DNA of 39,831 nt. Origin: Candidatus Kerfeldbacteria bacterium (lineage in GTDB: Bacteria; Patescibacteriota; Patescibacteriia; SBBC01; CAIJZX01). Position 1 is the first letter of the stretch. Every line of letters begins with the position of its first letter. The DNA is taken from assembly GCA_903825245.1 (NCBI GenBank), contig CAIJZX010000008.1, positions 1-39,831 on the forward strand. The letters are read 5' to 3'. Position numbers and translations under genes: made by a program. Below the pieces are notes generated by a model. It had not been told where the DNA came from. It worked only from the letters and a program-made list of their open reading frames with translations, and ran no database searches. Shown piece after piece: positions 14,232 to 38,857 of this stretch.

Positions 14232-14477
14232 ATGTTTTTTTGCTACATCGTCAAGTGCCATGATGGTACCCTCTATACGGGGATAACCACAAATATTAAA
14301 CGCCGAATTGTCGAACACAACACGTCACCACGTGGCGCGAAGTATACGCGCGTTCGCCGACCGGTAATGCTCGTTTATCAGCGACGATTTCGTAATCGCT
14401 CGAACGCGAGTAAAGCGGAAGTACGATTGAAGGCATTATCGCGGGCAGAAAAACAACAGTTGATTATCGGCACATAA
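14232..14477 (+). CDS. GIY-YIG domain protein (UPF0213/YhbQ-like)
   Basis: FFCYIVKCHDGTLYTGITTNIKRRIVEHN...GAKYTR. Confidence 0.9.
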   Translation: MFFCYIVKCHDGTLYTGITTNIKRRIVEHNTSPRGAKYTRVRRPVMLVYQRRFRNRSNASKAEVRLKALSRAEKQQLIIGT

Positions 14478-17325: not shown

Positions 17326-17410
17326 TCCTCGAGACCACTCCTTCCCGCTGGTGCGGGTTGCCCTCCTTATCTAAAGGAGGGCTCAGTTCGGAGGGGTGAC
17401 TTCGCGAGAC
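17326..17410. repeat. Composite multi-hairpin palindromic element
   Basis: Nested hairpins CCCGC-TGGT-GCGGG and CCCTCCTT-ATCT(A)-AAGGAGGG inside outer partially paired CACTCC.../...GGAGGGGTG. Confidence 0.55.
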
Positions 17411-17897: not shown

Positions 17898-17959
17898 CCA
17901 CCCCCTGCGGACCCCTCCCGAATTCGGGAGGGGTGGTGCCGCGAGCCGGGGTGGGGAAA
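17898..17959 (-). repeat. Palindromic repeat copy A
   Basis: 62 bp identical to copy B (18378-18439) except one base; core CCCCTCCCGAATTCGGGAGGGG. Confidence 0.9.
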
Positions 17960-18019
17960 GTTGACACAATTTCCTTCTCGTAGTACACCGAATATGTGGT
18001 TTGGCTCACCTCTTGAGTC

Positions 18020-18442
18020 ATGCCTCGTTTGTATCATCTTAACGCCTATACGCCGCTTCGTAAATCGTTACGGAATAACGCCACCCCAGCTGAACAGCAG
18101 ATGTGGAAGTATTTGCGTCGTAGGCAATTTCACGGACTGAAGTTCCGGAGACAAGAAGGTATTGGGCGCTATATTGTCGATTTCTACTGTCCGAAAAAAC
18201 GAATAGCAATTGAGCTTGATGGGCATGGGCACGATGGTTCTGAGCAACGATTGTATGACAAAGAACGTGAGCATTTTCTCGATGAATGTTATATATCGGT
18301 TATCCGGTTCAGGAATGAAGAAGTGCTTTGTGCTATCGAGGCTGTGTTACGAAGGCTAGAAGTTGCGGTACTTTCCTCCACCCCCTGCGGACCCCTCCCG
18401 AATTCGGGAGGGGTGGTGCCGCGCGCCGGGGTGGGGAAATAG
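18020..18442 (+). CDS. DUF559-type endonuclease (PD-(D/E)XK / Vsr-like fold); C-terminal tail encoded by repeat copy B
   Basis: LRKSLRNNATPAEQQMWKYLRRRQFHGLKFRRQEGIGRYIVDFYCPKKRIAIELDGHGHD...YLDE-like..VIRFRNEEV; tail SSTPCGPLPNSGGVVPRAGVGK is the repeat translated. Confidence 0.88.
   Translation: MPRLYHLNAYTPLRKSLRNNATPAEQQMWKYLRRRQFHGLKFRRQEGIGRYIVDFYCPKKRIAIELDGHGHDGSEQRLYDKEREHFLDECYISVIRFRNEEVLCAIEAVLRRLEVAVLSSTPCGPLPNSGGVVPRAGVGK
18378..18439 (-). repeat. Palindromic repeat copy B
   Basis: 61/62 identity to copy A, same orientation, exactly 480 bp apart, flanking the DUF559 gene. Confidence 0.9.
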
Positions 18443-18503: not shown

Positions 18504-18612
18504 ACCTGTGGATAAAAAAATAACCAAGAACAGAAGATATATGAGTGGTCGGGACGGATCCGTGACCATCCATAACAATTCAACTGTTCAATCCCGAAAG
18601 GAGGTGAAACAC

Positions 18613-19212
18613 ATGACCAATAAAAAAGGTTTTACCCTCATTGAACTTCTCGTCGTCATCGCCATCATCGGTATTTTATCGGCGATTGGTTTGGTTTCCC
18701 TCAACGGCGCTCGAGAAAAAGCGCGGGATGCGAAGGCACGATCCGACTTAGCTACTGTCAAGTCTGGTTTAGCTTTGTTCTATGATGATAACAACAGCGC
18801 TTATCCCGGTAACGTAACGGCAGGGACAGATGATATGGGTAACGGTTCTACCGCTGTTCTAGGCACTACAGCCTGTACAACAGGTGCAACAACAAATACG
18901 TGTACGAAAGACAGTATTTGGGATGCGACGAAGAAGATTCTAGTTCCTACCTATGTGGCCGACCTAAAAGCTCCAGCTACATCAGGGACAAATAAGTATG
19001 GGTATAAAGCATCGAACTTCACCTCAACAAACGGTGGAACGGTTGGTGGCTTTGTTCTCTACTATAAGTTAGAAGGTGCTGGTGGTTTAGACTATTACAC
19101 CCTGGATAATACAGGGACCGTGAAAGATACGTCTGATACAAAGACCACACTCACAGCCTGTACCATAGATTCTTCAGCAACATCGAAGACCGGTACCTGT
19201 GCACAGTCATAG
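18613..19212 (+). CDS. Type IV major pilin-like protein 1
   Basis: MTNKKGFTLIELLVVIAIIGILSAIGLVSLNGAREKARDAKARSDLATVKSGL; class III signal peptide; strong SD; ORF caller start (18328) is upstream. Confidence 0.92.
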   Translation: MTNKKGFTLIELLVVIAIIGILSAIGLVSLNGAREKARDAKARSDLATVKSGLALFYDDNNSAYPGNVTAGTDDMGNGSTAVLGTTACTTGATTNTCTKDSIWDATKKILVPTYVADLKAPATSGTNKYGYKASNFTSTNGGTVGGFVLYYKLEGAGGLDYYTLDNTGTVKDTSDTKTTLTACTIDSSATSKTGTCAQS

Positions 19213-19231
19213 GAAGGTTATAGTTCTTCAT

Positions 19232-19258
19232 AACACAGGGGCATTTCGCCCCTGTGTT
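19232..19258 (+). terminator. Hairpin after pilin 1 (weak T-tract)
   Basis: AACACAGGGGC-ATTTC-GCCCCTGTGTT 11-bp perfect stem. Confidence 0.5.
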
Positions 19259-19331
19259 GCTGTCTAATGTGTTGTCGGATACTTGGCGCGTTGTCGTTGT
19301 AACCTGAATGCTGATACGGTATACTGCGGTT

Positions 19332-19946
19332 ATGTTTGATCACGTTGTATATATATCTTATCTCTACTTAAGCTGGATTGCGCTTGTTGTTCAAGCCCTA
19401 TGCTTACTTAGGCTGGCTTTTCGTGGCCGTAGGCTACGAGAGCCGTTTCAAGACTTGCGCAAGAGCTTACTCTTCGTGGCTGTAGTACAAGTTATGGAAA
19501 TATTGATATATGGTGTCTTACTTTGGGCACTCATTCGTGATCACCCTCATGGCGATGTATTCTTGCCCCCTCACAGTTCGTTTTTACTCATTCAGGTGGC
19601 AACAAACACGACCGCCCTGCTTGCCGGTTGGATTTCTAGTAGCGTACTGTTTGTGGTGTTATGGTATGTTTTTATTCATCGTGGTAGTGGTTTGATGTTG
19701 GATGTCCGGGATGTATTATTGCTAGTGCTCTGTGCAGCAGTGGTGGGTTGGCCGGAGGTATTGCCATTTTTTGCAATAGTATTTGTGCTGACGTTATTGT
19801 GGATGTTTTTTATGATATTGCGTAAACGCATGACCCTACAAGACAGGCTTGTTGTGAGTCCGGTCATCATTCCGTCTGCCGTTTTAACAATAATTTTTAG
19901 AGTTCAGTTATTATCAATAACCCACCTCGATAAAATTAGATTTTAG
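19332..19946 (+). CDS. Multi-TM hypothetical membrane protein between the two pilin genes
   Basis: Hydrophobic TM-rich; TTGTAA-17-TATACT promoter whose -10 ends 6 nt before ATG 19332. Confidence 0.65.
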   Translation: MFDHVVYISYLYLSWIALVVQALCLLRLAFRGRRLREPFQDLRKSLLFVAVVQVMEILIYGVLLWALIRDHPHGDVFLPPHSSFLLIQVATNTTALLAGWISSSVLFVVLWYVFIHRGSGLMLDVRDVLLLVLCAAVVGWPEVLPFFAIVFVLTLLWMFFMILRKRMTLQDRLVVSPVIIPSAVLTIIFRVQLLSITHLDKIRF

Positions 19947-20041
19947 TTTAAAAAATTACCAGTAGTGCTATACTTATACAAAGAGAAAAATAGAGTTACC
20001 CACACATACTTTTCCCATAAAAAGCCGTAAAAGTGAAACAC

Positions 20042-20581
20042 ATGACCAATAAAAAAGGTTTTACCCTCATTGAACTTCTCGTCGTCATCGCTATCATCGG
20101 TATTTTATCGGCGATTGGTTTGGTTTCCCTCAACGGCGCTCGTGAAAAAGCTCGAGATGCGAAACGCATAACCGATCTCAATGAAATCAGAACGGCAATG
20201 ATAATTTACTTTGATGATCACGGTAGTAAGTATTTTGCCACGTCGAGTGGTGGTGCTGTCGACGCGTCTGGAGGGGATGGAGGGTTTAAAACTGCTATGT
20301 TGCCCTATTTACCCAACTTGCCACAGAACCCAGGTACAGGCAGCGAAAATAATCATTACTTTTACGCGAGTAATGGGGTGTCCTATGGTTTAGCCACAAA
20401 AATGGAAGGCGGCACCGGAGATTGGTATATTTTGAATAGTGTTGGCTGGGGTGGCACCGTTCCTGATAGTAATACTTGGACTAAAGACTTAGGTGATGGA
20501 GCGACAGCAATCAATTGCGGTGATGGATATGGCGAGGGTAGTGATTTTGATATTTGCGCTAGTCCCCCAGTGCCTCATTAA
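20042..20581 (+). CDS. Type IV pilin-like protein 2
   Basis: N-terminus identical in protein to pilin 1 (MTNKKGFTLIELLVVIAIIGILSAIGLVSLNGAREKARDAK), C-terminal domain diverged. Confidence 0.9.
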   Translation: MTNKKGFTLIELLVVIAIIGILSAIGLVSLNGAREKARDAKRITDLNEIRTAMIIYFDDHGSKYFATSSGGAVDASGGDGGFKTAMLPYLPNLPQNPGTGSENNHYFYASNGVSYGLATKMEGGTGDWYILNSVGWGGTVPDSNTWTKDLGDGATAINCGDGYGEGSDFDICASPPVPH

Positions 20582-20719
20582 TCGTATTGGTGAAACGAAG
20601 TATAGATTTTAGTTGTCCGACACAGCTTTGGCTTAACTGCTGTTTTCTCGTAAAAATGTCGCTATAGCTGCGAACATTAGCAGTACCATGGTGGTGCTGG
20701 ATTGTGCTATAATATACCC

Positions 20720-21208
20720 ATGAAACACAAAGCCTTTACCCAGCACCACTTCGCCCAAAAGGATAAGAAAGAACGTCAAAAAACGTCGATTTTTCGACGA
20801 AGTGGTGCTGGGTTTACCCTTACCGAAACCCTCATCGTTGGTGCCATTTTCGGCCTGTTTGTGTTAGCCGGAACGTTGATTTTAAGCATGGAACGGGCGC
20901 GAACGCGTGATGCCATACGAATTGCCGATATGACCCGTCTATCGGCTGGATTTGCCCTCCTGTACGGTCAAAAAGCGACGTACGCTGATGCCGCTGTCGG
21001 TTGTCCGACGGTTGGCTCGAATGCGGCGTTATGTACCTTAACTGACGTAGAAGTTGGGGTGAGTACGATAAAAGATCCGGGCACGTTTTCCTACACCATG
21101 CTCCGCGTTCCCGATGTTGATGACTATGCGGTCAAGTTCCGACTGGAGCGATCCTACGGAACATTGAAGGCCGGTGAGCACTCGCTGACCAAGTCGGGGA
21201 TTCACTAA
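20720..21208 (+). CDS. Pseudopilin/prepilin-like protein
   Basis: Leader ..SGAGFTLTETLIVGAIFGLFVLAGTLILSMERARTRDA; start ATG 20720. Confidence 0.8.
   Translation: MKHKAFTQHHFAQKDKKERQKTSIFRRSGAGFTLTETLIVGAIFGLFVLAGTLILSMERARTRDAIRIADMTRLSAGFALLYGQKATYADAAVGCPTVGSNAALCTLTDVEVGVSTIKDPGTFSYTMLRVPDVDDYAVKFRLERSYGTLKAGEHSLTKSGIH
20738..20813. repeat. 16-bp perfect inverted repeat in the prepilin leader coding region
   Basis: ACCCAGCACCACTTCG (20738-20753) and CGAAGTGGTGCTGGGT (20798-20813), with inner hairpin CGTCGA-TTTT-TCGACG. Confidence 0.9.
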
Positions 21209-21209
21209 C

Positions 21210-21983
21210 ATGGTCACGCTCGATCCACTGGCGGTGCTGGTACTGGCCGCGGTTGTCGGACTCATGTTCGGCAGTTTTTTAAACGTCCTGATTCTCCGCA
21301 CGCACAAAGGCACCTCGCCCTGGAAAGGTCGATCGGTGTGTATGCATTGCCATCATCCGATCAGATGGTTCGATAATATTCCGCTGGTCAGTTTCATCGT
21401 TTTGCGCGGCCAGTGCCGTCATTGCCAAGCGAAACTTTCTTGGCAGTATCCGCTGGTTGAAGTGGGGACGGCAGTAGTATTCGCGATCGTCGCTCATCGG
21501 TTTGGTGCGACCTGGTGGACGCTCGGAGCGTTTGCGGTGACTATGATGATGATTGCGGTGGCGGTTTATGATGCGCGCTGGTCGTTGTTGCCAGATAGTT
21601 TTTCCATCGTCTTAGCGGTGTTTGGATTTACGTTTGCCGCCTTAGCGAAGATGCCGCTGGTGGATCTGGGACTTGGTCTACTCGCTGGTGCTAGCTTTTT
21701 TGCCTTGCAGTTTTTTCTTTCGCGTGGACGATGGGTGGGGAGCGGCGATATTCTCCTCGGTGGGGCGATTGGTGCGCTGTTAGGATGGCGGATGCTCGGA
21801 TTGGCATTATTTATCGCCTACATGGTCGGCGCGATATTCGCCTCGGTTCTGCTCATACTGCGACGGCAAAAAACATCCAGCGCAATTTCCTTTGGGCCGT
21901 TTCTCGTTTTGGGAGCGTTTCTGTCATGGCTCTGGGGACAACAGATCGTTGACTGGTATTTCAATCATGCCTTATTCCGCTAA
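21210..21983 (+). CDS. pilD: Prepilin peptidase / N-methyltransferase
   Basis: GSFLNVLILRTHKG, two CxxC pairs (CMHC..CRHC), YDARWSLLPD and GSGDILLGGAIGALLG aspartates. Confidence 0.95.
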   Translation: MVTLDPLAVLVLAAVVGLMFGSFLNVLILRTHKGTSPWKGRSVCMHCHHPIRWFDNIPLVSFIVLRGQCRHCQAKLSWQYPLVEVGTAVVFAIVAHRFGATWWTLGAFAVTMMMIAVAVYDARWSLLPDSFSIVLAVFGFTFAALAKMPLVDLGLGLLAGASFFALQFFLSRGRWVGSGDILLGGAIGALLGWRMLGLALFIAYMVGAIFASVLLILRRQKTSSAISFGPFLVLGAFLSWLWGQQIVDWYFNHALFR

Positions 21984-22590
21984 TCTAGCAAATTTTCTCA
22001 CCCCGGCGCGCGGCGCCACCCCTCCCGATCCCGTGTCACAGCACGGGACAAGATTCGGGAGGGGACGATCTGGGTTCACACTCGTTGAACTCATGATTAG
22101 CGTCGCGATTATTGTTATTCTCACCGCTATTATTTTTGGTGATTTTAATCATGAGAGTAGTCGCAATGCATTAAAATCCGCAGTTCATCAACTGCAAACA
22201 GATTTGCAAGGGATGCAAGCGAATGCCCAGGGTGGTGTGTTAACGGATGGAGTTGCCCAGTCTTGGTATGGTGTTCATGTTCAAGCGAAAGACCATGCGG
22301 ATAGTGACACCCAAGGCTTTGCTGTTTTTGCTGCTCCGACGCTTGGCGCAAAAAATGTTCTGGTGACGAGAACGTTTACCTCGGAAGTCTTCATTCGCTA
22401 TGTCAACGGCAATTCGGGCGATGGTGATATTACTTTTCAGGTGCCGAGCGGCAAAGCGGTGCTCTCTACCGGCGGTTCGACCATGACCATTGTTATCGAA
22501 AGTCCCCAACTGAACACCTGTTATGCCATTACGGTTACGGCGGATGTCGGAACTGTCTCACAACGTCAACTATCCTCATGTTCGCTGTAA
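21967..22590 (+). CDS. GspH-like pseudopilin with a repeat-derived leader peptide
   Basis: MPYSANLANFLTPARGATPPDPVSQHGTRFGRGRSGFTLVELMISVAIIVILTAIIFGDF. Confidence 0.8.
   Translation: MPYSANLANFLTPARGATPPDPVSQHGTRFGRGRSGFTLVELMISVAIIVILTAIIFGDFNHESSRNALKSAVHQLQTDLQGMQANAQGGVLTDGVAQSWYGVHVQAKDHADSDTQGFAVFAAPTLGAKNVLVTRTFTSEVFIRYVNGNSGDGDITFQVPSGKAVLSTGGSTMTIVIESPQLNTCYAITVTADVGTVSQRQLSSCSL
21998..22066 (+). repeat. Palindromic repeat copy C (inserted in pseudopilin leader)
   Basis: CTCACCCCGGCGCGCGGCGCCACCCCTCCCGATCCCGTGTCACAGCACGGGACAAGATTCGGGAGGGGACGA; matches reverse complement of copies A/B with an extra hairpin in the core. Confidence 0.8.
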
Positions 22591-38807: not shown

Positions 38808-38857
38808 CCCTCCACCCCGGCGCAATGCGCCACCCCTCCTCGGGCAGGAGGGGACGT
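38808..38857 (+). repeat. Palindromic repeat copy D
   Basis: CCTCCACCCCGGCGCAATGCGCCACCCCTCCTCGGGCAGGAGGGGACG; same 5' arm and core as copy C. Confidence 0.75.

Follow-up and report, generated by a model that had tools for sequence, protein, structure and literature searches.

Intrastrand triplex-forming repeats are present in hundreds of bacterial genomes, and their origin was previously not known. The best described family, TMECO/PIT, is built of a C-rich arm, a loop, a purine arm, a short loop and a purine tail that mirrors the purine arm (Holder et al., 2015; PMC4666352). TMECO occurs in 3610 copies in 262 proteobacterial genomes, and TMECO oligonucleotides were found to form a triplex in vitro by NMR and CD, with no triplex seen in vivo by DMS (PMC4666352). 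That study reported no flanking gene of interest, found no mobility gene or mobility activity in the gene contexts of triplex motifs and did not mention DUF559 (PMC4666352), whereas DUF559 is the recurrent partner of such repeats in the present analysis. A second related system is REP/RAYT (TnpA-REP), in which a small nuclease gene likewise lies between palindromes that are also dispersed as solo copies and in inverted pairs, and in which repeat copy number also correlates with the gene. The nuclease of REP/RAYT is a Y1 HUH transposase, whereas the bracketed gene described here encodes a PD-(D/E)XK (Vsr-fold) protein of the DUF559 family; the GTAG/CGTC foot of the REP hairpin is, by inspection, absent here, its place being taken by a G-rich mirror tail that ends in T. 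The Vsr and EDxHD homing endonucleases (PDB 3r3p) and the DUF559 structure 3hrl belong to the same nuclease superfamily, to which YcjD has been assigned with Vsr as a relative (PMC1189080), but the present locus has no intron or intein, and repeats bracket its gene. Another DUF559 protein, VsrA of Caulobacter, is responsible in vivo for a DNA-damage response in cells without the methyltransferase ScmA and is interpreted in terms of mismatch repair linked to a cytosine methyltransferase, unlike the role considered here; in the available part of that report no repeats are discussed (PMC12907096).

The window, by which we mean the whole stretch of 39,831 nucleotides that was analysed, contains a DUF559 PD-(D/E)XK (Vsr-fold) nuclease gene at 18020..18442 on the plus strand (140 aa; PF04480, 112 bits, E 1.6e-32). 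Repeat copy A (17898..17959, plus strand) consists of the hairpin ACCCCTCCCGAATTCGGGAGGGGT (17911-17934), flanked by the mirror tails CCACCCC and GGGGTGG, and repeat copy B (18378..18439, plus strand) is a direct repeat of it. A preliminary description of this DNA had stated that the two copies are 61/62 identical, lie in the same orientation 480 bp apart and bracket the DUF559 gene, and that the last ~22 codons of the gene are read from copy B; the layout was found exactly so, with the 480 bp counted from start to start, and the repeat-encoded tail measures ~21 residues. Folded as single strands, both copies were far better than shuffled sequences (z -4.7 for copy A and z -3.3 for copy B). 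The related copies that had been reported elsewhere in the window are also present: copy C (21989..22028, minus strand) is a truncated half element with a GGGAGGGG arm, a mini-hairpin and a GGGGTG tail, of which the opposite arm is lost, and copy D (about 38812..38853, minus strand) is a solo element, a full hairpin (CCCCTCCTCGGGCAGGAGGGG) with a mini-hairpin (GGCGCAATGCGCC) and one tail (CCACCCC). An extra CCCTCC/GGAGGG palindrome with imperfect mirror tails, located at 17360..17382, 540 bp upstream of copy A, is possibly a decayed element. The TTGACA that had been described as -35-like is present at 17961..17966 (plus strand), one base past copy A, but a promoter scan gave no acceptable -10 partner, and as a -35 box it is only suggestive.

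The left flank of the window locus is rearranged compared to its relatives and a clean empty site was not obtained for it; in G001, with which it was compared, a related pilin gene directly follows a PilC-like gene. Downstream, at 18604-21983, the window contains type IV pilin-like genes followed by a prepilin peptidase-like gene, and two of the pilin-like genes have 131-nt starts that are 97% identical. In G003, a genome of the same family, the slot upstream of the related pilin gene is filled by a GIY-YIG nuclease gene (L251/L280, G003:C33, about 370-591), bracketed by another, TTCGACAAGCTCAGG-like repeat family. The window itself contains a GIY-YIG nuclease gene 3.7 kb upstream (14232-14453), with no triplex-type hairpin adjoining.

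The source genome (1.30 Mb, 42 contigs) was searched with the palindrome pattern CCCTCCn2-12GGAGGG, and the reversed pattern was used as control. The palindrome occurred 39 times and the control once, indicating that the palindrome is more frequent than expected by chance. All seven DUF559 genes of the genome (7/7) have a palindrome within ~200 bp. Twelve of the 39 palindromes are located near DUF559 genes, where about 0.2 would be expected by chance (estimated from lengths), and the other 27/39 are solo palindromes away from DUF559.

In hairpins that flank DUF559 genes the 5' arm is almost always the pyrimidine arm, and most of these hairpins carry a G-rich tail. The general build is a C/T-G/A hairpin, a short linker and a G-rich tail mirroring the purine arm, as in CCTCCCC..GGGGAGG followed by GGAGGGGT, CCCCTCC..GGAGGGG followed by GGGG(T/A)GGT, and CCCTCTCC..GGAGAGGG followed by GGGTGAGGT. 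Among 198 unique elements, 82% follow the mirror rule perfectly, compared to 21.5 ± 2.5% with permuted tails; a rule in which the tail is a direct copy was rejected, as it reached 21%, equal to chance. Palindromes far from DUF559 follow the mirror rule in 71% of cases, those near it in 74% and random flanks in 1.7%. Opposite an A of the arm, the tail carries A (105), T (84), C (4) or G (3). A mirror tail with A or T over A is the pairing rule of the antiparallel purine-motif triplex. The class II triplex rule described for TMECO matches this pairing (PMC4666352), and the class II purine pairing, in which the tail mirrors the purine arm with G over G and A or T over A, was found in the present elements. 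The linker is mostly 3 nt and in most elements 2-4 nt long, within the 1-6 nt loop definition (TMECO/ITxF); the window copies have 6 nt at the 5' side and 13 nt at the 3' side, where a mini-hairpin is possible, and differ from TMECO in this 13-nt linker and in having no match to the exact TMECO consensus. Judged from their sequence, the palindromes are predicted to form an antiparallel purine-motif intrastrand triplex within a single strand and are members of the known TMECO/PIT class (PMC4666352), with DUF559 as a new partner. The preliminary description had recognized the nuclease gene bracketed by repeats, which stands, but had missed this membership. At both flanks, tails are directed at the gene more often than away from it (139 vs 71). 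A search of Rfam gave no match. Plain terminators were rejected; the elements are without T-runs.

The association was further analysed in 103 DUF559 loci from the source genome and its relatives, several of which are records of Patescibacteria, e.g., Uhrbacteria. Hairpins were defined independently of the motif, by a perfect stem of 8 or more, a loop of 12 or fewer and arms with 60% GC or higher, and scored within 250 bp. Upstream hairpins were present at 56/100 loci and downstream hairpins at 67/102; 82/99 loci had one on either side, and 38/99 had them on both. Among 448 other ORFs of the same loci, 12.7% had one at the 3' side, 7.8% at the 5' side and 0.9% on both sides. GIY-YIG nuclease genes of the same genomes had a hairpin in only 5/26 cases, and GIY-YIG as a general parallel hairpin-linked system was rejected for that reason. 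A wider set of 80 further loci from Bacteroidota, Nitrospirota, Desulfobacterota, Pseudomonadota, Acidobacteriota, Chloroflexota and other phyla gave hairpins on either side in 59/71 and on both sides in 35/71 of the loci; a detectable hairpin is absent at about 17% of DUF559 loci. Of 170 DUF559 loci, 105 have within 250 bp a triplex-type element whose mirror tail is perfect, compared to 38/2328 random windows (1.6%). Enrichment of DUF559 beside the repeats, on which the preliminary description had staked its reading, is strong in the source genome, in the class and across phyla. The median number of palindromes per genome is 6 with full-length DUF559 and 1 without (p 6e-15, Spearman 0.57). 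Some relatives without detectable DUF559 are nevertheless rich in palindromes (G031, 35; G034, 41; G183, 19), which requires the assumption that a different mobiliser acts there or that the gene was lost. The element type is the same on both flanks in 40/74 loci (22.5 ± 3.8 expected), and mapped on the DUF559 tree it requires 45 changes, compared to 61 ± 3 when shuffled and only 29 vs 34 ± 2.3 within the class; this agreement can partly be due to host lineage. A search of the literature accessible without subscription found no paper linking DUF559 with repeats.

At syntenic sites, gene and hairpins are present or absent as a block. This was observed within one genus (G078 vs G185 and G041; G118 vs G139), within the family (G006, G007, and G009 vs G004) and, with extra sequence, in G102 vs G034. 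Empty sites, which had been called for among strains, exist at the level of genus and family; their junctions are good only to a few tens of bases, with syntenic flanks about 68-79% identical, and for individual sites neither a gain nor a loss is proven. No target-site duplication was recognisable at the compared empty sites at this flank identity. The flanks of DUF559 genes are inverted repeats at some loci and direct repeats at others, and therefore no single insertion product is defined. The acidobacterial genome from which locus L208 was taken contains 91 palindromes, many of them in inverted pairs with the tails inward and some in tandem; the inverted pairs span 173-203 bp in nearly all cases, and six such units surround the DUF559 gene of L208. 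The inverted pairs of this genome relate to the DUF559 gene as MITE-like units to their autonomous copy.

The DUF559 protein of the window carries E25, W29, R44, Q45, D54, E65, D67, H71, and D80, which is the invariant set of the family. The active-site residues D54, E65, D67, H71, and D80 are missing in only 0-3 of about 182 sequences, and in the alignment the active site is conserved in 180-183/183 at most positions. Together with a dN/dS of 0.12-0.20 in four close pairs, this indicates that the nuclease is under selection: its active site is intact and the selection is purifying. One of the seven copies of the source genome (L145, G000:C32:12949-13269, minus strand) has Ala instead of the otherwise near-invariant Asp at D54 and is probably catalytically dead. 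The AlphaFold model of the window protein has a mean pLDDT of 88, with high confidence in the nuclease domain and low confidence and no secondary structure in the repeat-encoded tail. Helices and strands of the model, the profile match and the acidic and His residues place the protein in the PD-(D/E)XK (Vsr-fold) superfamily. In searches of the DUF559 profile against PDB the best-supported hit was 3hrl (E 6e-34), the sequence of which is itself a DUF559 protein, and the mobile-intron endonuclease 3r3p was reached weakly (E 0.002). Matches to toxin B-chains in the same table (E about 0.01) cover a short stretch only and were taken as chance, and PADLOC returned a DpdF match that is partial only.

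On this basis we consider it somewhat probable that the locus represents a single copy of a REP/RAYT-like repeat-nuclease unit that occurs bacteria-wide and uses a PD-(D/E)XK (Vsr-fold) nuclease. The resemblance of a small mobile unit to REP/RAYT had been proposed from the window alone and is strengthened by the enrichment, the block-wise presence and absence and the non-autonomous inverted pairs; that DUF559 cuts or mobilises the hairpins is still something we infer. Because of the association, the mirror rule, the unit structure and the analogy with REP/RAYT, the nuclease may process the repeat and the unit may move by a transposition route. The repeat would become single-stranded during replication or repair and fold, the DUF559 nuclease would recognise the folded repeat and nick at or near it, and the ends would be copied or moved to a new site. 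Repeats would in this way spread alone, as inverted pairs (MITE/REPIN-like) or together with the gene as the autonomous form, and near-identical direct flanks as at the window would result from recombination or repair at an existing repeat. We propose more tentatively that a lone PD-(D/E)XK nuclease, present across bacterial phyla, which recognises and spreads a triplex hairpin and which is responsible for the TMECO/PIT repeats of E. coli and relatives, could represent a new minimal class of mobile element.

The main rival is a homing-type variant, in which the repeat is the target and DUF559, acting as a free-standing nuclease of the homing type, cuts an existing repeat; the gene is then inserted during repair templated by an occupied copy and ends up between two direct repeat copies, the repeats themselves being spread by another route. 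The most similar flank pairs (L066, L115, L120, L110, L128, L112, and the window, where the flanks are near-identical) are all direct repeats, a DUF559 gene of Neisseria gonorrhoeae is flanked by near-identical direct repeats that share this design, the profile reaches 3r3p, and palindrome-rich genomes without DUF559 exist, all as expected for homing. However, at the position of the gene no triplex palindrome remains in the empty sites of G185, G041, G139, and G004, inward-pointing inverted ends prevail overall, and the MITE-like pairs, which share the ends of the unit, look as if derived from it. High-identity direct flanks, as in the window and some other loci, are compatible with recombination or homing at a repeat already in place, and inward inverted ends with a transposable unit; as an account of the whole, homing appears unlikely.

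A cis-regulatory role, with the hairpins as terminators, mRNA stabilisers or ribosome-site sequestering parts of DUF559 genes and no role in mobility, is in line with their frequent position beside start and stop codons and with the G-rich tail, which can resemble a Shine-Dalgarno sequence; 3'-end hairpins are common. Such a role is made improbable by the 27/39 elements that are solo elsewhere in the source genome, by inward C-rich tails past the stop codon that ribosome binding leaves unexplained, by the lack of T-runs, by control and GIY-YIG genes that are without such hairpins and by the absence of promoter or terminator activity of the E. coli motif (PMC4666352). That triplex repeats are unstable spots of breakage and rearrangement where DUF559 genes, moved by unrelated means, collect is in line with the higher rearrangement linked to TMECO loci in E. 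coli (PMC4666352), but is very improbable, as GIY-YIG genes do not show the enrichment, which is specific to DUF559, and the element type tracks the DUF559 tree and agrees between flanks.

If the repeat-nuclease unit proposed above is real, it would be a transposon-like system based on an enzyme of the Vsr fold, would assign a function to a 'domain of unknown function' that is very common and would provide a natural protein that may read triplex DNA. DUF559 may then be the candidate long-missing partner that spreads triplex repeats, from candidate-phyla bacteria to E. coli, and the recurrent nuclease partner offers a testable system in E. coli K-12, where the DUF559 gene is ycjD. In one E. coli strain ycjD ends inside an exact TMECO, which is followed by a second TMECO farther along; of these two, K-12 has the second in intact form and the first in decayed form. 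The gene is present in 3370/5426 complete E. coli genomes, and strains without ycjD have an efflux operon in the same sapF-fabI slot (cf. PMC12817139). E. coli O157:H7 has no ycjD, yet it has several TM-like matches, and the partial strain counts are confounded by phylogroup. In ST69/ST182, ycjD is 12 nt longer (PMC12817139), which may reflect a TMECO-encoded tail. At two E. coli sapF-ycjD-fabI loci (L306 and L320) the stretch after ycjD repeats the 3' end of the gene (GAGACGGTGCTGGAGAATATTC) and continues with TM-like remnants, and in strain PSS-12 the interval between the ycjD 3'-end repeats is lost.
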